A stretch of DNA of 35,885 nucleotides from a virus, in IMG/VR virus record IMGVR_UViG_3300035034_001388, positions 1 to 35,885 of that record. One strand, written 5' to 3'. The position numbers and the translations under genes were made by a program. Positions 3,789 to 33,218 of the stretch are shown one piece after another; the first letter of the stretch is position 1, and each line of letters begins with the position of its first letter. The notes beneath the pieces are model-generated. The model searched no databases, was not told the DNA's origin, and saw nothing but the letters and a program-made list of their open reading frames with translations.

Positions 3789-4168
3789 TAGGCGACGGCC
3801 TCCGAGTGTTTGTAGGTGACGGCGCACGGGCTCACGACATAATCGTCGAGGGTGTTGTCGGTAGAGAACCCATTGTTAAGCCAGTAGCCGCCCTCCATCC
3901 ATCGCTCGGATGAGAGCCACGGAAGCTTCAACACTTCGTTTTGGATTCGCTTGTCGGCCTCGACGCAGAGACGGAAGAGCCACTGCGTGGTCTTAGTGTT
4001 TACGTGCGGATAGTCTTCGATGCGGGCGATCTTTTCCAGATCGGGGAAGACCATCGTAAGCAGCCCGGCCATGTAGTCGCGCGGGTTGCTCACTTCAGAG
4101 AAAAGCTTCTCTACCTTTTTCGGGTCGAGCAGCACGTTGTCGTGTATGATTGAGTATTTGTTGCTCAT
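3788..4168 (-). CDS. Hypothetical early protein
   Basis: 126 residues with no motif I recognise. It is soluble-looking, with a mixed charged N-terminal half and a Trp/Tyr-rich stretch (W-M-E-G-G-Y-W-L-N-N) around residues 90-100. The start at 4168 is preceded by GGGGGAGGACGC, a strong Shine-Dalgarno unlike the AAGGCAAA leaders of its neighbours. It lies two nt from the upstream small gene and overlaps the next start by TAATG, so it is clearly within an operon. Role unknown. Confidence 0.7.
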   Translation of the reverse strand: MSNKYSIIHDNVLLDPKKVEKLFSEVSNPRDYMAGLLTMVFPDLEKIARIEDYPHVNTKTTQWLFRLCVEADKRIQNEVLKLPWLSSERWMEGGYWLNNGFSTDNTLDDYVVSPCAVTYKHSEAVA

Positions 4169-4170
4169 GG

Positions 4171-4359
4171 CTAAGCGTCCTCCCCCGACATTTCGTTTTC
4201 AATATCCACTTCGACTGCGCCCATCTTGACGTATTGAACTTCCGCCACATCGTCGGGGTTGATACTGTCTTCGACTTCAGCAACGCTCCAGAAGTTGAGC
4301 GGAAAAAAGGTCACGCCACCGGCGACCCAGATTACTTTTAAATATGGTAGAACATTCAT
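4171..4359 (-). CDS. Small acidic hypothetical protein
   Basis: 62 residues. A hydrophobic N-terminal half (L-K-V-I-W-V-A-G-G-V-T-F-F-P-L) is followed by a very acidic tail. It could be weakly membrane-associated, but the hydrophobic part is short and broken by Pro. The ATG at 4359 has the shared leader GAAAGGCAAATC, which supports real translation. A palindrome copy lies 35 nt upstream (4395-4411), and beyond it the folded RNA-like segment. No family recognised. Confidence 0.65.
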   Translation of the reverse strand: MNVLPYLKVIWVAGGVTFFPLNFWSVAEVEDSINPDDVAEVQYVKMGAVEVDIENEMSGEDA

Positions 4360-4394
4360 GATTTGCCTTTCGTTGGTTTTGCTTAGTGCGCCCC

Positions 4395-4411
4395 ATCATT
4401 AAAATAATGAT
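4395..4411. repeat. AT-rich palindrome, copy 2 (core only)
   Basis: Exact core ATCATTAAAATAATGAT with 7-bp arms. The flanking bases (C at 4394, A at 4412) do not pair, making this the shortest-armed copy. It lies about 35 nt before the start codon of the 62-residue gene read leftward. Confidence 0.85.
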
Positions 4412-4430
4412 AGAAGCATGAGCGTGAGAT

Positions 4431-4702
4431 ATACGCACAGAGAGGCGGCGAGTCTCAAGGAGGGCTATTATCCTCCGGCCATTTCGCCCATTGCCTGTGC
4501 GTGAAAGTGAGTGAGTAGCGAAGTTGTGCTGAAAGGAAGCTAGGCCACGGCATTCACCTGACTACCACATGGCAGCAGGTTCCACGGGATTCTTCCGGAC
4601 TCAGACTACAGAGCTTCGCTACTCGGTTGATGGTTAATGAGCAGACAGACTGGCTTCTCGCGAAGCGTCCTCCGTTGCGGCTCCTGCCGTACGACGGGAG
4701 CT
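4431..4702. ncRNA. Candidate structured RNA in 355-nt gene-free gap
   Basis: No credible reading frame fills the interval 4360-4715, yet it is dense in long perfect stems. An 8-bp stem pairs 4433-4440 with 4495-4502 and encloses GGCG/CGCC (4444-4447 with 4485-4488) and the hairpin GGAGG/CCTCC (4459-4463 with 4472-4476). An 11-bp perfect stem, GAGTAGCGAAG (4513-4523) with CTTCGCTACTC (4614-4624), closes a 90-nt subdomain. A GCTTC-tcgc-GAAGC hairpin lies at 4653-4666, and a GCTCC...GGAGC hairpin with inner CCGT/ACGG at 4680-4701. Neighbouring genes are on the minus strand, but stems are strand-symmetric so the strand is undecided. It does not match tRNA, tmRNA, RNase P or the group I core as I know them. 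Function unknown. Confidence 0.6.
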
Positions 4703-4715
4703 AGAAATAGGTGGC

Positions 4716-4898
4716 CTATGTAGCCTTGATGTAGGCATTGAAACCTACGGTCACGGGCTTGCCATCGACTAAGACCTGAGTGGTAATGTTGCCACCGCTG
4801 GACGCAACGATGCGCGTTTTCCCAGACTTGCTGAGTTGCGGGATTTCAGTGACATCAGCCTCGATAATGATCTTTTTACCTTTAATAGATACATTCAT
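4716..4898 (-). CDS. Small basic hypothetical protein
   Basis: 60 residues, probably all beta, with alternating hydrophobic strands and a L-S-K-S-G-K-T-R-I-V-A-S-S-G-G-N core and a D-G-K-P-V-T-V-G-F-N-A-Y-I ending. I recall similar short proteins in phages but know no function. The start at 4898 is fixed by the leader ACGAAAGGCAAATT immediately before ATG; the frame is open further upstream but without a leader. A palindrome copy (4926-4948) lies 28 nt upstream. The stop is followed within 15 nt by the folded 4431-4702 segment. Confidence 0.75.
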   Translation of the reverse strand: MNVSIKGKKIIIEADVTEIPQLSKSGKTRIVASSGGNITTQVLVDGKPVTVGFNAYIKAT

Positions 4899-4925
4899 AA
4901 TTTGCCTTTCGTTTTGTTTATGTGA

Positions 4926-4948
4926 GCTATCATTAGAATAATGATAGC
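4926..4948. repeat. AT-rich palindrome, copy 3
   Basis: Core ATCATTAGAATAATGAT, one centre base different from the consensus (AAA becomes GAA). The arms extend to 10 bp with GCT...AGC flanks. It lies 28 nt upstream of the minus-strand start at 4898. Confidence 0.85.
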
Positions 4949-5041
4949 AGGGTTTGAGCGATCGTTTGGGGCACCCGCGACAGCGGATACCGAGGACAAG
5001 TCGCAGCGGCTCAGAAATGCAACGGCTCTCCAATTGAATAC

Positions 5042-5073
5042 AAAAAAAGCCCGCACCGGTGAAGGTGCGGGCT
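5042..5073 (-). terminator. Rho-independent terminator, minus strand
   Basis: A 10-bp perfect stem, AGCCCGCACC (5048-5057) with GGTGCGGGCT (5064-5073), has a 6-nt loop. Read leftward it runs into seven T (A5042-5048 on the plus strand). It begins 19 nt after the stop of the 291-residue gene, which it should terminate. The small gene starting at 4898 therefore needs its own promoter, presumably near the palindrome at 4926. Confidence 0.9.
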
Positions 5074-5091
5074 GGTTGAATCTTGCTCGGC

Positions 5092-5967
5092 TTAGAAGTT
5101 TACACTTTCGAGCTGAGCTTCGCTAGTCGCGACCACTTCGAGTGTAGACTTGATCGCCGTGAGGTACTGGTCGACTAGGGCAAGGGCCTCATTCGCGTGA
5201 CCGGGCTGCTCCATCGCGATTTCGGTCGCGAGTGCCTCAAGCTTGTTGAGGGAATTGCGAAGCATGGGGAGTTTCGGCATTGGAACTGGAGCAGTGTCCG
5301 GCTTTGTGGCCTTTGCTTTCGTTTCGGGTTCGACTTCCGTTTCCGCTTCCGCCTCGACCGCGACCTCCGCTTCGGCTTCCGCTTCGGCTTCCGCTTCGGC
5401 CTCCGCTTCGGCCTCGACCGCGACTTCCGCTTCGGCTTCGGCTTCGGGTTCAGCCTCAGCGTTCAGCTTCTCAGCTTCCGCTTTAACTTTCGCGGCATGG
5501 ATCTTTGCATCGGTCTCAGCCTTAGCTTTGGCTTCTGATACGAGGAAATCGCTGTGCGCTTGGGTTGTCATTCCCGTATCGGCGAGCGACTTCCACTCTT
5601 CGGGCTCGCCTAGGTAGGCTTCCGCCATGGTCGCGTTTTTCGCCGTGAGCTTGTTCAACGACACGGCGAGACCGTAATTGATGGAATTATCAAACTCCAC
5701 CTCAGTCATTTTTCCGGTCGCGACGTAGGTCTCGTAGACCATCGCTATTTGACGGCCGTTGGCGATTTGAGACTTGGAAAGTCCTGCTTTTTCAAGCAAG
5801 CCATAAACAGTCTCTTTTCCGCGCAAAACGGAAGCCAGGGCTACACACGCCTTGCCGGCGACAACATAGGCCTTGCGGCCAGTCTCAAATGCCGTAACGG
5901 CAGTCGAGACGATTTCTTTGCGGGTTCCGGAGCTAAGCTCTTCTACGGATATTAGTTTATTCGACAT
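5092..5967 (-). CDS. Hypothetical protein with Glu-Ala repeat linker
   Basis: 291 residues in three parts. The N-terminal helical domain (1-150) holds a helix-turn-helix-like stretch (L-L-E-K-A-G-L-S-K-S-Q-I-A-N-G-R-Q). A low-complexity Ala/Glu linker follows (roughly 165-225, repeated AEAEAE with two V-A-V-E insertions). A C-terminal helical domain ends the protein. The linker is encoded by degenerate GCTTCCGCTTCGG-type DNA repeats, so its length may drift by recombination. The start at 5967 has leader ACAAAGGAAAATT. A strong terminator follows the stop. It could be a DNA-binding or structural organiser protein; function unknown. Confidence 0.75.
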   Translation of the reverse strand: MSNKLISVEELSSGTRKEIVSTAVTAFETGRKAYVVAGKACVALASVLRGKETVYGLLEKAGLSKSQIANGRQIAMVYETYVATGKMTEVEFDNSINYGLAVSLNKLTAKNATMAEAYLGEPEEWKSLADTGMTTQAHSDFLVSEAKAKAETDAKIHAAKVKAEAEKLNAEAEPEAEAEAEVAVEAEAEAEAEAEAEAEAEVAVEAEAETEVEPETKAKATKPDTAPVPMPKLPMLRNSLNKLEALATEIAMEQPGHANEALALVDQYLTAIKSTLEVVATSEAQLESVNF

Positions 5968-5997
5968 AATTTTCCTTTGTCTTGTTATTTTGAATGA

Positions 5998-6012
5998 TTC
6001 AAACCGTTTGAA
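5998..6012. promoter_or_regulatory. Perfect 15-bp palindrome, possible operator
   Basis: TTCAAAC-C-GTTTGAA, 7-bp arms around one base, lies 31 nt before the minus-strand start at 5967. It sits between that start and the first copy of the ATAAG/CTTAT repeat. Position and symmetry suggest an operator controlling the 291-residue gene. No protein partner is known. Confidence 0.4.
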
Positions 6013-6023
6013 CCATTGCTCAG

Positions 6024-6052
6024 TATAAGGGTAAAGCTTGTGACTTATTCAG
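6024..6052. repeat. ATAAG-n14-CTTAT repeat, copy a
   Basis: TATAAGGGTAAAGCTTG followed by TGACTTATTCAG. The half-sites ATAAG and CTTAT are separated by 14 nt centred on AAGCTT. It lies 57 nt upstream of the minus-strand start at 5967. It is identical over 29 nt to the copies at 6176 and 6275. Confidence 0.9.
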
Positions 6053-6065
6053 TCAGTGGCTTGCC

Positions 6066-6098
6066 TTGAATCTATCATTATTTTAATGATAGATTCAA
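6066..6098. repeat. AT-rich palindrome, copy 4 (longest arms)
   Basis: The core ATCATTATTTTAATGAT (consensus on the opposite strand) is extended to perfect 15-bp arms, TTGAATCTATCATTA with TAATGATAGATTCAA, around TTT. It lies 99 nt upstream of the start at 5967, in the 328-nt gene-free stretch 5968-6295 that also holds three ATAAG/CTTAT repeats and a terminator. Confidence 0.9.
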
Positions 6099-6175
6099 AA
6101 AACCTTGGCGGCCTAGCTCGCATCGGAGCTGGCGCTTGCCAGTGGGCTATCAAGTGCTTTCACTTCATTGCCCAA

Positions 6176-6204
6176 TATAAGGGTAAAGCTTGTGACTTAT
6201 TCAG
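6176..6204. repeat. ATAAG-n14-CTTAT repeat, copy b
   Basis: Identical over 29 nt to copy a, in the same orientation, 152 nt further right. No gene begins next to it; it lies in the gene-free 5968-6295 stretch. Confidence 0.9.
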
Positions 6205-6240
6205 AAACTGCCTTCCCTTGCGCGCTAAGAAAGCGTGCAT

Positions 6241-6272
6241 AAAAGAGCCCGCATTCATAAGAATGCGGGCTC
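6241..6272 (-). terminator. Rho-independent terminator, minus strand
   Basis: A 12-bp perfect stem, GAGCCCGCATTC (6245-6256) with GAATGCGGGCTC (6261-6272), has loop ATAA. Read leftward it runs into TTTT (A6241-6244). It lies 24 nt after the stop of the 299-residue gene and should end that transcript. It shares its GC-rich AGCCCGC stem style with the terminator at 5042-5073. Confidence 0.85.
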
Positions 6273-6274
6273 GA

Positions 6275-6303
6275 TATAAGGGTAAAGCTTGTGACTTATT
6301 CAG
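6275..6303. repeat. ATAAG-n14-CTTAT repeat, copy c (overlaps gene end)
   Basis: Same 29 nt as copies a and b. Its right end supplies the stop codon and the last residues (V-S-E) of the 299-residue gene at 6296-7195. The repeat therefore sits between that gene's end and its terminator. Confidence 0.9.
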
Positions 6304-28378: not shown

Positions 28379-29935
28379 ATGAGTAAATTAGGGCAACTAC
28401 TCACCGAACTGACCGAAGTGGCGGTCGGGAACGGAAGATGGAAGAAGACGCAAGAGCGCCTAAATTCTATGCAAGAGGCGATCAAGGCTTTGGCGCGTGG
28501 AGACAACATAGTGTCGGGGAAGTATATCACAAAAAACCTACTCAACCCGCACACGATTTCGCTCTCCGGAACTCCCGGCGGCGGCGGCGGTGGATCGTCC
28601 GATTACCCTCTTAAAATAAAAACGGCGATCGACCCAGATAATGGCGATGTGCTAGTCGATGTCGTGCCGTCATTCCTCTACGATTACACCGTCGGTTCAA
28701 CTGCGCCTGCGAAATTTGACATCACCCCGGCCGAGCCCATTGCCCTGTCTGCTGCCGGGAACTACACAGCATTTGTCCGCGTCTCGATAGATCAAGCCGT
28801 AGGCAAAAAAGTGACTGCTATAGAGTGGGCAGTTGAGGAGGGAGAAATCGCCTCGGAGGAGGGAGAAATCGCCCCGGAGGACGGAGAAGTATTGCTTGAG
28901 GTCGGCACGGTCGAGGTGATCAAGACGGGCAGCGTCCTATCGGTGGGAGTCGTGGAGAATCTCACGGCAGGCTTCCTGAGCTGGCCTCCGCGCCCACCAT
29001 GGCTCGGATTCGATGAGGCGGAAAACGATGTTACATTCGGGCAGGATTATAATTCCGACGAGGCCCCCACAACCGCTGACCCCACGGTAATTACCGACCT
29101 CACCATCTGGACAGAGGAAGACCTCAATATCAACGGATATGGCGGCGAGTTCCAGCGCGGCGGTGCCACGGAGGGGCAACCCGCCTTTCAGATTGGCACT
29201 AAGCTCGGCACGGAAGAGACGGCGGGGGCGTATTGGTCAACGGCGGGCGGCTATATTGGTGTCGGCTCACTCGCGGGCGGAGCAGAGGACGACTCAGGTT
29301 ACTTACTAGCCGCGAATACAGCCCTGAGCGAGTATGTGGACATTCGGCCAGCGACCGTTAAAGGCGTCGATACAGCAGCGGGGGAGTTCTTGCTTGATGC
29401 GGGAGAAGTTCCAAGCGGTGAGTCGATTCAGGTTAAGCTCATCACTATGCCCAATGGTGACGAGATCCGCACCTTTGCTACTGATGATATTGACCTTTCT
29501 GCCCTTTCGGGTGCCGGAGTCCCGTGGGCGGATTACGATGCAGGAAACCTTAAGATCGGGGGAGCCTCCACCGATGGAGTAGCAGACCTTACGATAGGTT
29601 TTACGGGTCAACTTAGTCTTGTAGGTGGGGCCGATTTTGCCTTCGTAGTGGATCCCATTCGCGCTGAGCTATCCTACCTACGCATGGGCTCAGCCCATGT
29701 GAATGTTCAGGATCTAGCGTCTTTCTTTGCAGGTGACATAACCTCGGAGGTGGGCACGGCTATCTCGCCAAACTCCATAATAATAGACGATCAGGACGCC
29801 AAATCAATTACCGCCGCTCTAGTCGACTTACCCGCGTCGGGAGTGGCTAAGTTTCGCTCAACTATGGTCTGTGATGGCGACGACCTGAAGGAGAGCTACA
29901 TCATGATGACCGAACCCAAAACACCGTCCCCCTAA
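28379..29935 (+). CDS. Tail tip/fibre protein with poly-Gly linker and short tandem repeats
   Basis: 518 residues from the ATG at 28379 (4 nt after the preceding stop). An N-terminal helical segment (K-L-G-Q-L-L-T-E-L-T-E-V) leads to a G-G-G-G-G-G linker near residue 64, then beta-rich regions. Between about 157 and 175 an E-E-G-E-I-A-S/P motif is repeated nearly three times, encoded by ~30-nt tandem repeats. The long C-terminal part is acidic and beta-rich, as in tail tips and fibres. It ends in a TAATG overlap with the next gene. Confidence 0.62.
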   Translation: MSKLGQLLTELTEVAVGNGRWKKTQERLNSMQEAIKALARGDNIVSGKYITKNLLNPHTISLSGTPGGGGGGSSDYPLKIKTAIDPDNGDVLVDVVPSFLYDYTVGSTAPAKFDITPAEPIALSAAGNYTAFVRVSIDQAVGKKVTAIEWAVEEGEIASEEGEIAPEDGEVLLEVGTVEVIKTGSVLSVGVVENLTAGFLSWPPRPPWLGFDEAENDVTFGQDYNSDEAPTTADPTVITDLTIWTEEDLNINGYGGEFQRGGATEGQPAFQIGTKLGTEETAGAYWSTAGGYIGVGSLAGGAEDDSGYLLAANTALSEYVDIRPATVKGVDTAAGEFLLDAGEVPSGESIQVKLITMPNGDEIRTFATDDIDLSALSGAGVPWADYDAGNLKIGGASTDGVADLTIGFTGQLSLVGGADFAFVVDPIRAELSYLRMGSAHVNVQDLASFFAGDITSEVGTAISPNSIIIDDQDAKSITAALVDLPASGVAKFRSTMVCDGDDLKESYIMMTEPKTPSP

Positions 29936-30675
29936 TGGCAATCTGGCTACCCAACAATAAAGACGATTCCGACGCGCCGACTTGCTACGTGCCTGGCCTA
30001 CCTTATGTCTCGCAGGCCGATGGTGTGCAAGACAACCCCAACGGGTTTTTCCAAAAAGAATCTATCGGCAACGCGGGTAACGCCGTGCAGAAGTATATGC
30101 ATTACTGCACGCGAATGTTGAGGTGGAATGACATCAACCTTGATCCCTTCACGGTGAGCGGCACGCCAACGATCAATAAGACTAAGCGGTTCGGCGATCT
30201 TGGCAGCTACCATGTAAGCGACGCCTACGGCATTCGGACGAGCGGTGGATCAGTCGATCTAGATAGCGCGTTTACTCGATACAGATTCCCATCCGAAGAA
30301 GTCCCTTACCACCTATATGATTATAGAGGCGTAAGCGTGGGCACGGGCTTCCCTTTTACGGGGAAGACCTGCGGGTGGTTGCCTGCCGCAGAGGATTCAG
30401 GGTTCTTCTGGGTGCCGACTACGACCGACCTCAGCAATATTGAAACGGGGCTAGAGGCATTTCTCGTTAGCAAAAGCACTAGCCTTTCCGCGCTCGCCGC
30501 CCTCCCGCAAGTGTGGAACCTCTGCATCATCGCATGGATGTGGGCAGGGTATGATGGTGGAGCAACTGAGTTCCACGACGGAGAGGACAGGCCATCGCAA
30601 GGACTTTCAGGACGGCTGACAGAATTACGAGCTGTCAAGGACTGCGACGTTTACTATCTACCCTATCTCTACTAA
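29935..30675 (+). CDS. Intron-split tail-region protein, 5' exon (unspliced ORF)
   Basis: The ATG at 29935 overlaps the stop of the preceding gene (TAATG). The continuous frame is 246 codons and ends at TAA 30673-30675. That stop lies at the predicted 5' splice junction: exon 1 would end with T30673, and splicing to 30923 gives codon T-CG and 31 more residues (total about 278). The product is Trp/Tyr/Gly-rich (W-M-W-A-G-Y-D-G-G), with no recognised domain. It is encoded between two tail fibre-like genes, so a tail tip or fibre role is inferred. Without splicing a shorter protein lacking the last 32 residues would be made. Confidence 0.72.
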   Translation: MAIWLPNNKDDSDAPTCYVPGLPYVSQADGVQDNPNGFFQKESIGNAGNAVQKYMHYCTRMLRWNDINLDPFTVSGTPTINKTKRFGDLGSYHVSDAYGIRTSGGSVDLDSAFTRYRFPSEEVPYHLYDYRGVSVGTGFPFTGKTCGWLPAAEDSGFFWVPTTTDLSNIETGLEAFLVSKSTSLSALAALPQVWNLCIIAWMWAGYDGGATEFHDGEDRPSQGLSGRLTELRAVKDCDVYYLPYLY

Positions 30676-30922
30676 TGATTTTTCAACCACATCGACATCG
30701 ACATCGGGCATTATGGGGTGAACTCAGGGAAACTCCCACGCGGACAATCCTGAGCCAAGCTTTCGCAGGAATGCGATTGAAGGTGCAACGACTAGGTAGC
30801 GAGGCCAGAACGGCCAGTAATCTACCCACGAGCGCCCCACGGCCTAGCCGCCGAAGAGATAGTCTGAACTGCATGGCAACATGCAGAAGCGCGGGATAAA
30901 CAGCCCACGCGATAACACAATG
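30674..30922 (+). ncRNA. Group I self-splicing intron (subgroup IA-like, td-like), no ORF
   Basis: The complete catalytic core can be drawn. P3 is TGGGGTG (30714-30720) with CGCCCCA (30833-30839). AA joins it to P4, CTCAGG (30723-30728) with CCTGAG (30749-30754), and the 3' strand continues into the typical AATCCTGAGCCAAG. P6 hairpin TCGCA-GGAA-TGCGA spans 30763-30776. P7 is GACTA (30790-30794) with TAGTC (30860-30864). P7.1/P7.2-like GGTAG/CTACC spans 30795-30826 and P8 CGGC-cta-GCCG spans 30840-30850. P9.1 is CTGCATG-GCAA-CATGCAG (30869-30886). P9.2 joins 30889-30895 to 30904-30910. The end ACACAATG gives omega-G at 30922. The P7'/P9.1 part closely resembles the T4 td intron as I remember it. 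The 5' end is less certain because I could not place a clean P1 guide. Confidence 0.9.
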
Positions 30923-31020
30923 CGCCGAGAGGCCAGCTCAAAGAGGGTGTCGATGTGGTTGACCCCTTTCCTGCCGTTGACACTCGCCCCCATCTATGGC
31001 GGATTACAACTGGTGGCTAG
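30923..31020 (+). CDS. 3' exon of the intron-split tail-region gene
   Basis: After the intron, the frame starting with two bases CG plus CCG AGA GGC CAG is open for 31 codons to TAG at 31018-31020. It encodes P-R-G-Q-L-K-E-G-V-D-V-V-D-P-F-P-A-V, ending in I-T-T-G-G. It has no start codon of its own, looks protein-like in composition, and is reached in phase only if the 5' exon ends after a first codon base, as T30673 does. It overlaps the start of the next gene by 25 nt. Alternative frames are stopped or non-protein-like. Confidence 0.7.
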
Positions 31021-33218
31021 ACCAAACTTCACGTTCGATACATCAACGTCTCGACACTACTTTGATGCTATCCGGTTTCCGGTTTTTCCAGGGCGACAAC
31101 CCCTCGATCAACCTCCAGCTCAAGAAGACTTCCGAAGAGGCCAATGCGGGGTTTGATCCCATTTCCTTTCCATCAGGCGGAAGTATGCGGGTCGGCATCG
31201 TTAATCCCGATCAAGCTGTCACGGGGGGAACCTTCACCCTTGGATTTGGGGGCAACGAAACTGCCGCCCTTCCCTATAGCGTCACTGCGGCGGCTCTCGA
31301 GACTGCGATCAATGGACTCGCATCAATCGCTACCGCCGGAGACGTTACAGTTACGGGCGAGGCGGGCGGGCCATGGCGAATCAAATTTGACGACCCCGGC
31401 ACCCGAAGTTTGCTCGGGGTGAATGCCGAACTGATTTTACCTTCAGGTGAAGCTCAAATTCACGAGGAGAATGTCGGTGACGCTGACTCATCCAGCGTGC
31501 AATATCTTCGCATTAAACAGGCTGCGCTTGCCGAGCAAGCCACCTGGGCAGACATTCCGGCTGCGGCAGTCGTCGTCGCGACTGTTCAGGCAGGATCCGG
31601 CTCCGTGAATGAGGTGCAAAAAGTTTCCCTGTCCCCTTTTCCGCGCAGTGGTAACTTTACTTTGAGCTTCGATGGCCAGACTACCGCGAGTATCAGCTAC
31701 GACGCCACCGCCGCAACCGTCCAGGCTGCCCTTATAGCACTCTCCAACATTGCGGACGCTGCGGTGATCGTCACCAAGGTCGCATCCGGCTCCTGGCTTA
31801 TTGAGTTTATTGGCGATCTAGCCCTTGCCAATCAACCTGAAATGACGGGTAGCGCGACCGGCCTTCTCTCTTACGAGGGTAAGACCGGCCGCCTTTCGAT
31901 TCGTCGCGCAGCAGTTCAAAACTACCTAGACGCCAATGCTGTCGAAAACGGAATAGCCTTCGCTTACCTTGAGATCGAGATCAAAGACGCTGACGGGAAC
32001 GCGACATCGTACCGGTACGATTGCGAGATCGTGAACGACGGGCTTGGAGAGAATATCTCGAGCGACACCTCGGGGTCACCATTGGTCGCGCAGTCCGTAG
32101 GCGATCAGCGGTACGCCCGCCCACTTTCTGCCATCACTGGGCTCACGGGCGGCGCAGGCACCGACCTCGACTCCATAGTGGCCGCAACCCTCGCAGTCGG
32201 CTCCGTGGTCGTTCTTCCTCGTATCGTAATAGGGGCATCCGTAGTGTCGCGCTGGTGGGTCTTGGAAACCTCAGCCAGCCGGCCGGCTGAATCTCCTCAA
32301 GTTGTGCATCCCGACGACGACTCAAACAAGTATTGGCAGGCACTTGTTTCGGGCGTCACCGCCACCAACGCCGAAATCATCGCAGGCACCGAGGCGGCTA
32401 TCCGCAGCATGTCGCCTGCGATGATTAAGCTCGGAGTGGATGCGCATAGCGGTCTCCAAGAGACGCTCTTTTCCGCAACGACTACGGGGGCTGTCACCAG
32501 TAAGCTCGTAATTGGAGAACTTGTAGCGGGTGACACGCCCTCGAATGTTGAACATGCCTCAATCGGTAGATCAGTGACATCGCTCGGAACAGATGCGTTT
32601 AAATCTAGTCTAAGCCTTGAGTCTGTCACTTTAAACCAGGGACTACTAACAATCGGCAGCTCTGCGTTCCGTGATTGCAGCGCTCTAACGAGTGTCACGA
32701 TTCCCGACTCTGTCACGTCAATCGGCAGCTATGCGTTCAGTTATTGCAGCGGTCTAACGAGTGTCACGATTGGCGACTCTGTCACGTCAATCGGCAGCTC
32801 TGCGTTCCGTGATTGCAGCGCTCTAACGAGTGTCACGATTCCCGACTCTGTCACGACAATCGGCAGCTCTGCGTTCCTTTTTTGCAGCGGTCTAACGAGT
32901 GTCACGATTCCCGACTCTGTCACGACAATCGGCAGCTATGCGTTCCTTTTTTGCAGCGGTCTAACGAGTGTCACGATTGGCGACTCTGTCACGTCAATCG
33001 GCAGCTCTGCGTTCCGTGATTGCAGCGCTCTAACGTCCATTGATTGCTATATCAACAAAACAGTTATTGATTCAGCGTCCAACATGTTGTCAGGGACGAA
33101 TGCGTCACTGGTGATCACGATTCCAGTGGACGCGGCACAACCCGTTAAGGATTCATGGACAGCAGGAACGGGGCTAACAATCGGCGGTAACACCAGCGTT
33201 GATGTCGTCAAACTATAA
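30996..33218 (+). CDS. Receptor-binding-type tail fibre with BspA-like leucine-rich repeats
   Basis: 740 residues. The N-terminus (M-A-D-Y-N-W-W-L-D) is probably tail-attached. Two copies of a beta repeat (G-T-F-T-L-G-F-G-G near 77 and G-N-F-T-L-S-F-D-G-Q-T near 217, each followed by A-A-T-V-Q-A-A-L-type helix and a W-x-I-x-F strand) resemble domains in phage baseplate/fibre proteins. Residues about 551-680 form BspA/LRR_5-type repeats of 23 residues (S-S-A-F-R-D-C-S-A-L-T-S-V-T-I-P-D-S-V-T). A final beta segment follows. BspA-type LRRs bind surface proteins and glycans, so this is the likely host-recognition fibre. Its start overlaps the upstream split gene by 25 nt. Confidence 0.8.
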   Translation: MADYNWWLDQTSRSIHQRLDTTLMLSGFRFFQGDNPSINLQLKKTSEEANAGFDPISFPSGGSMRVGIVNPDQAVTGGTFTLGFGGNETAALPYSVTAAALETAINGLASIATAGDVTVTGEAGGPWRIKFDDPGTRSLLGVNAELILPSGEAQIHEENVGDADSSSVQYLRIKQAALAEQATWADIPAAAVVVATVQAGSGSVNEVQKVSLSPFPRSGNFTLSFDGQTTASISYDATAATVQAALIALSNIADAAVIVTKVASGSWLIEFIGDLALANQPEMTGSATGLLSYEGKTGRLSIRRAAVQNYLDANAVENGIAFAYLEIEIKDADGNATSYRYDCEIVNDGLGENISSDTSGSPLVAQSVGDQRYARPLSAITGLTGGAGTDLDSIVAATLAVGSVVVLPRIVIGASVVSRWWVLETSASRPAESPQVVHPDDDSNKYWQALVSGVTATNAEIIAGTEAAIRSMSPAMIKLGVDAHSGLQETLFSATTTGAVTSKLVIGELVAGDTPSNVEHASIGRSVTSLGTDAFKSSLSLESVTLNQGLLTIGSSAFRDCSALTSVTIPDSVTSIGSYAFSYCSGLTSVTIGDSVTSIGSSAFRDCSALTSVTIPDSVTTIGSSAFLFCSGLTSVTIPDSVTTIGSYAFLFCSGLTSVTIGDSVTSIGSSAFRDCSALTSIDCYINKTVIDSASNMLSGTNASLVITIPVDAAQPVKDSWTAGTGLTIGGNTSVDVVKL
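32650..33033 (+). repeat. Six near-identical 69-bp LRR-coding tandem repeats
   Basis: Units begin at 32650, 32719, 32788, 32857, 32926 and 32995, each starting with (A/T)CAATCGGCAGCT; the last is truncated. They differ only at a few codons (R-D/S-Y/L-F before C-S; S-A/S-G; I-P-D/I-G-D; V-T-S/V-T-T; S-S/S-Y before A-F), and the variants recur in new combinations between units, as expected from recombination among repeats. Confidence 0.95.

Follow-up and report, generated by a model that had tools for sequence, protein, structure and literature searches.

The closest described parallels to the locus examined here are the RNase III intercistronic sites of phages T7, T3 and lambda, the REP-type hairpins that stabilise 3′ ends, and the noncoding RNAs (msr-msd) of retrons. 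Transcripts of lambda, T7 and T3 are cut by RNase III, whereas the highly structured ompA RNA is not, and a folded rod alone is thus insufficient as a substrate for this enzyme (PMC5371410). As for short dispersed elements, the Start-Associated and Extended Start-Associated Sequences (SAS and ESAS) of cluster K mycobacteriophages are likewise dispersed over a single phage genome (PMC3203893).

Our locus lies in a viral window (the whole stretch of DNA analysed, 35,885 nucleotides of IMG/VR record IMGVR_UViG_3300035034_001388), where 356 nt (4360-4715) separate the minus-strand ORFs of two small genes, p60 and p62 (Table 1). It resembles the T7, T3 and lambda sites in that a long irregular hairpin falls between early genes of the same direction, where no protein is encoded; it differs in that the hairpin is predicted, and in being one site without relatives. 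As with REP-type elements, stable hairpins follow a short gene and precede a gene with its own leader, but the two domains in question, C and D, are single-copy and belong to no sequence family. The retron parallel is a retron-type reverse transcriptase encoded by this virus, with a strongly folded stretch next to it; that stretch, however, is about 13 kb away and is not matched by models of C and D.

Table 1. Features of the gap and its flanks, in window positions.
Feature	Position	Strand	Remarks
p62, 62-aa orphan	4171-4359	-	downstream gene; starts 35 nt past the E1 core
E1 leader hairpin of p62	4391-4416	-	core 4395-4411; outer arms pair by G-U
Domain D, 70-nt hairpin	4433-4502	-	closed by 8-bp stem 4433-4440/4495-4502
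Domain C, 112-nt irregular rod	4513-4624	-	11-bp closing stem, 90 nt inside
Hairpin B, 38 nt	4641-4678	-	predicted fold; not significant, z -1.3
Hairpin A, 22 nt	4680-4701	-	predicted fold; weak significance, z -2.2
p60, 60-aa orphan family	4716-4898	-	adjoins the gap on its upstream side; signature VASSGGNITT
E1 copy, p60 leader	4929-4945	-	further copy of the palindrome
Rho-independent terminator of gene 5092-5967	5048-5073	-	precedes p60

Position and fold of the gap

The first-pass annotation had described a gene-free gap of about 355 nt that holds an 8-bp and an 11-bp perfect stem, with a copy of a palindrome immediately to their left, and this description is borne out. Among the stop-to-stop frames wholly within the gap, the longest has 61 codons and none is convincing as a gene; a 32-codon frame on the minus strand (4455-4553) was weighed and set aside as unlikely. 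Both stems are exact, the longer one (4513-4523/4614-4624) enclosing exactly 90 nt, and the palindrome copy lies where the p62 leader hairpin has its core. The gap contains the inverted repeats 4433-4451/4484-4502 and 4513-4528/4609-4624. Direct repeats and iterons were sought in the gap, a strong GC-skew change at it, and further copies of the region within the same virus; none was found.

The fold is more stable than expected from shuffled sequence, as the same annotation had proposed to check: the 272 nt claimed there give z -3.45 on the minus strand (0 of 300 shuffles) and -2.09 on the plus strand. Domain C reaches z -4.9 on the minus strand (0 of 1000 shuffles) and -4.1 on the plus strand, values that carry a selection effect in that C was picked post hoc for its stem. 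Domain D gives z about -3 on either strand. For each of the two domains, more than 99% of the shuffled sequences fold less well. The roughly 90 nt adjoining p60 (4625-4715) do not fold significantly against shuffles, so the signal is confined to C and D, about 190 nt together. As minus-strand RNA, C is predicted to form 37 Watson-Crick and 4 G-U pairs, against 1 G-U pair on the plus strand, with energies of -48.3 and -44.5 kcal/mol, respectively. Of the earlier proposal of a structured RNA of about 270 nt, the folding beyond shuffles therefore stands, chiefly for the minus strand; the separate RNA is not supported, given a signal limited to some 190 nt for which neither a promoter nor a terminator was found.

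Set against the rest of the genome, the structure is real as a property of the sequence, yet not extreme. When 5092 overlapping windows of its own genome are compared with a correction for composition, the 290-nt region comes 100th on the minus strand and 475th on the plus strand. Domain C is about the tenth distinct structural peak genome-wide, and the other peaks include coding stretches such as dnaN. The 63.9-kb virus has 8 sites with a perfect inverted repeat of at least 11 bp and a loop no longer than 100 nt, versus 1.0 in shuffles, those 8 sites including several palindrome copies and a terminator.

The genes on either side suggest how the gap may be transcribed. A terminator ends the gene that precedes p60, which indicates that p60 begins its own unit. 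Within 4360-4715, a search for a rho-independent terminator (a G+C-rich hairpin with a run of T after it) found none. Just downstream, p62 has its own short, A-rich leader with a ribosome site, which follows the palindrome, and beyond p62 lie p126, RadC and a DnaN-like sliding clamp. Because no recognisable terminator follows p60 and the palindromic leader of p62 comes just after, the region is probably read-through mRNA of the minus strand between two units; the shared strand and the missing terminator are the two observations from which we infer co-transcription, and with it the read-through transcript. A sigma-70 promoter scan of 4100-6400, with a model that may not suit the host, found no promoter-like site.

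Relatives and known RNA classes

The same virus is also represented by IMGVR_UViG_3300012147_000014 (G001, 63,928 bp), a second, near-identical strain in which the region is 100% identical. The chief difference between the two is a BspA-type leucine-rich repeat array (window 32649-33035, in ORF 30996-33218). The scanned record is stitched from pieces, and its right end carries a 96-nt duplicate because window and larger record are shifted there by 96 nt relative to each other; the break falls in the repeat array and leaves 4360-4715 unaffected.

Beyond this identical copy, we found no homologue. Searches with blastn against phages and plasmids returned only short matches at chance level (E of 1 or more), and IMG/VR scans that took 14-16-base words of the two domains as seeds and were filtered by covariance models gave chance matches only. 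A search of a sample of 294 genomes from one phylum gave no match, an empty answer that shows little. The neighbouring proteins are similarly isolated: p62, p126 and p299 matched the same virus alone. The p60 family reaches further, with relatives on 6 other viral contigs (51-64% identical) and at 8 genome loci, among them MAGs of Ignavibacteria, Hydrogenedentes and Phycisphaeraceae; it has no match in Pfam or PHROG, and covariance models of the region run on these p60 relatives found no matching structure. One syntenic relative, L011, keeps the order p60-DnaN-p295, but there p60 and DnaN are about 70 nt apart. The region and the p62, p126 and RadC genes are therefore additional in the present virus. 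With an identical copy as the sole homologue, no selection on the region is demonstrable.

The earlier reading that the region matches no known RNA class agrees with Rfam 15, whose best permissive matches here have E of 0.8-9.7 and fall far below gathering scores. Hammerhead, HDV-like, attC and group II domain V elements were dropped after an informal inspection by eye, their core sequences being absent. The group I intron model RF00028 does not match the region either; its sole match in the window (30624-30886, plus strand, 59.4 bits) overlaps the 3′ end of ORF 29935-30675. No retron reverse transcriptase adjoins the region, whose neighbours are p60, p62, p126 and RadC. A new RNA class cannot be claimed, and no observation connects the fold with an RNA that is conserved or independent.

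The reverse transcriptase itself lies about 13 kb off and outside the window, at L027:9334-10257 of the larger record (plus strand; PADLOC E 1e-39, Pfam RVT_1). Beside it, a gene-poor stretch at about L027:8357-9080 contains a 70-nt direct repeat and, at -8.2 sd, the fold that stands out most in the whole genome. An Rfam search of this stretch gave no match; it is a probable retron noncoding RNA.

The E1 palindrome and a second dispersed repeat

The palindrome next to the folded domains, which we call E1, has the form ATCATTA-N3-TAATGAT and occurs in 10 copies in the larger record, 2 of them with one arm base changed. Seven are in the window (1612, 4395, 4929, 6074, 7944, 8014 and 17964) and three more in G001. 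The copies sit before genes, on either strand, and one of them precedes an ORF whose sequence looks integrase-like. In 8 of the 10 copies, the two bases flanking the core on each side are symmetric as well (p 0.0022 against permuted flanks), and these symmetric flanks vary among copies (CT/AG, GC/GC and CG/CG). At 4395, the outer arms can pair solely as minus-strand RNA, through G-U. Both an extended operator and a 5′ RNA hairpin would be consistent with this pattern.

Among described elements, ESAS comes nearest to E1. Like SAS and ESAS of cluster K mycobacteriophages, E1 is a short inverted repeat that recurs upstream of several genes; in contrast to them, it has a different sequence and a tight 3-nt centre where theirs are variable spacers, and it belongs to another phage group (PMC3203893). 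A scan of other phages for E1 found it in the same virus only. E1 is more solid than the structured spacer beside it. A second dispersed repeat, TATAAGGGTAAAGCTTGTGACTTATTCAG, occurs in intergenic DNA near two of the palindromes (window 6024-6054, 6175-6209, 6274-6308 and 7917-7932), and when the 290-nt windows of the genome are compared with one another, 5978-6300 folds most strongly.

Possible roles of the folded spacer

Our tentative reading, which we hold at somewhat less than even confidence, is that C and D form hairpins between cistrons and serve in mRNA processing or stability. Transcription starting in the region of the E1 copy before p60 would read through into the p62-p126-RadC-DnaN operon, and C and D, in the untranslated minus-strand spacer, would act as a processing or 3′-end stability element. 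Either a double-strand-specific RNase of the RNase III type would cut there, or the hairpins would block 3′ exonucleases; the p60 message would thereby be separated from the downstream operon, which has its own E1 leader. Several observations point this way: the flanking genes both lie on the minus strand, the strand with the more significant fold; C has more G-U pairs and a better energy on that strand; and a terminator stands before p60, with none in the gap. RNase III targets generally have the shape of a long irregular rod between cistrons. The predicted geometry of C would fit such a rod, of about two helical turns within one transcript, provided that the genes on both sides are co-transcribed as inferred above. 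Similar folds within coding regions of the same phage argue against a processing or stability role.

Those folds also bear on the account that comes second in likelihood, that the region is a neutral, lineage-specific spacer that came with the p62, p126 and RadC cargo between p60 and dnaN, and whose functionless fold belongs to the tail of the distribution. The short p60-DnaN gap of L011 would be expected if region and cargo arrived together, every search ended at the identical copy, the region ranks only 100th on the minus strand, and C shares the structural peaks with coding stretches. Yet both domains surpass nearly all of their shuffles, and phage genomes seldom retain 350 nt without use, which leaves this account rather unlikely. 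A role at the DNA level, with the inverted repeats serving as an origin, a recombination site or the end of a mobile element, would suit the replication gene dnaN 1.3 kb away and the significance of the C fold on both strands; the lack of direct repeats, iterons or a strong GC-skew change, the G-U pairs favouring minus-strand RNA and the single copy in the virus make it very unlikely.

Two further accounts place the function in RNA, as does the processing or stability reading. A free-standing, trans-acting small RNA whose body is C and D, either transcribed from a promoter of its own or released by cleavage of the p60 transcript, is improbable. The significant minus-strand fold is in its favour, as is a perfect complementarity of 14 nt between D (4478-4491) and a site upstream of p295 (1688-1701), which holds between minus-strand RNAs. 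However, chance alone would give about 0.1 matches of this kind (an estimate from the lengths of region and genome), and the p295 side of the match lies upstream of an E1 hairpin and so is probably outside the p295 mRNA. No sigma-70 site was recognised in 4100-6400, with the reservation about the scan given above, and the gap has no terminator. The more specific version, in which 4433-4624 is an undescribed noncoding RNA that is released from the p60 message and works in trans, for example on the p295 leader by way of the 14-nt complementarity, has a slimmer chance still. That the domains are instead a cis-regulator of the p62 operon, be it a riboswitch, an attenuator or a protein-binding leader, is as doubtful as a DNA element: they are separately folded and lie upstream of the operon on the same strand, but the E1 hairpin and the short A-rich leader with its ribosome site intervene before the start codon, and neither an Rfam match nor a terminator/anti-terminator pair was found.

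Without relatives, the spacer says little in favour of a new RNA class. The by-products of the analysis, namely the dispersed E1 hairpin and the retron-type reverse transcriptase with its folded neighbour, are more informative than the spacer itself. If the proposed processing or stability hairpins are real, they would be one more phage case in which hairpins between operons set message levels.
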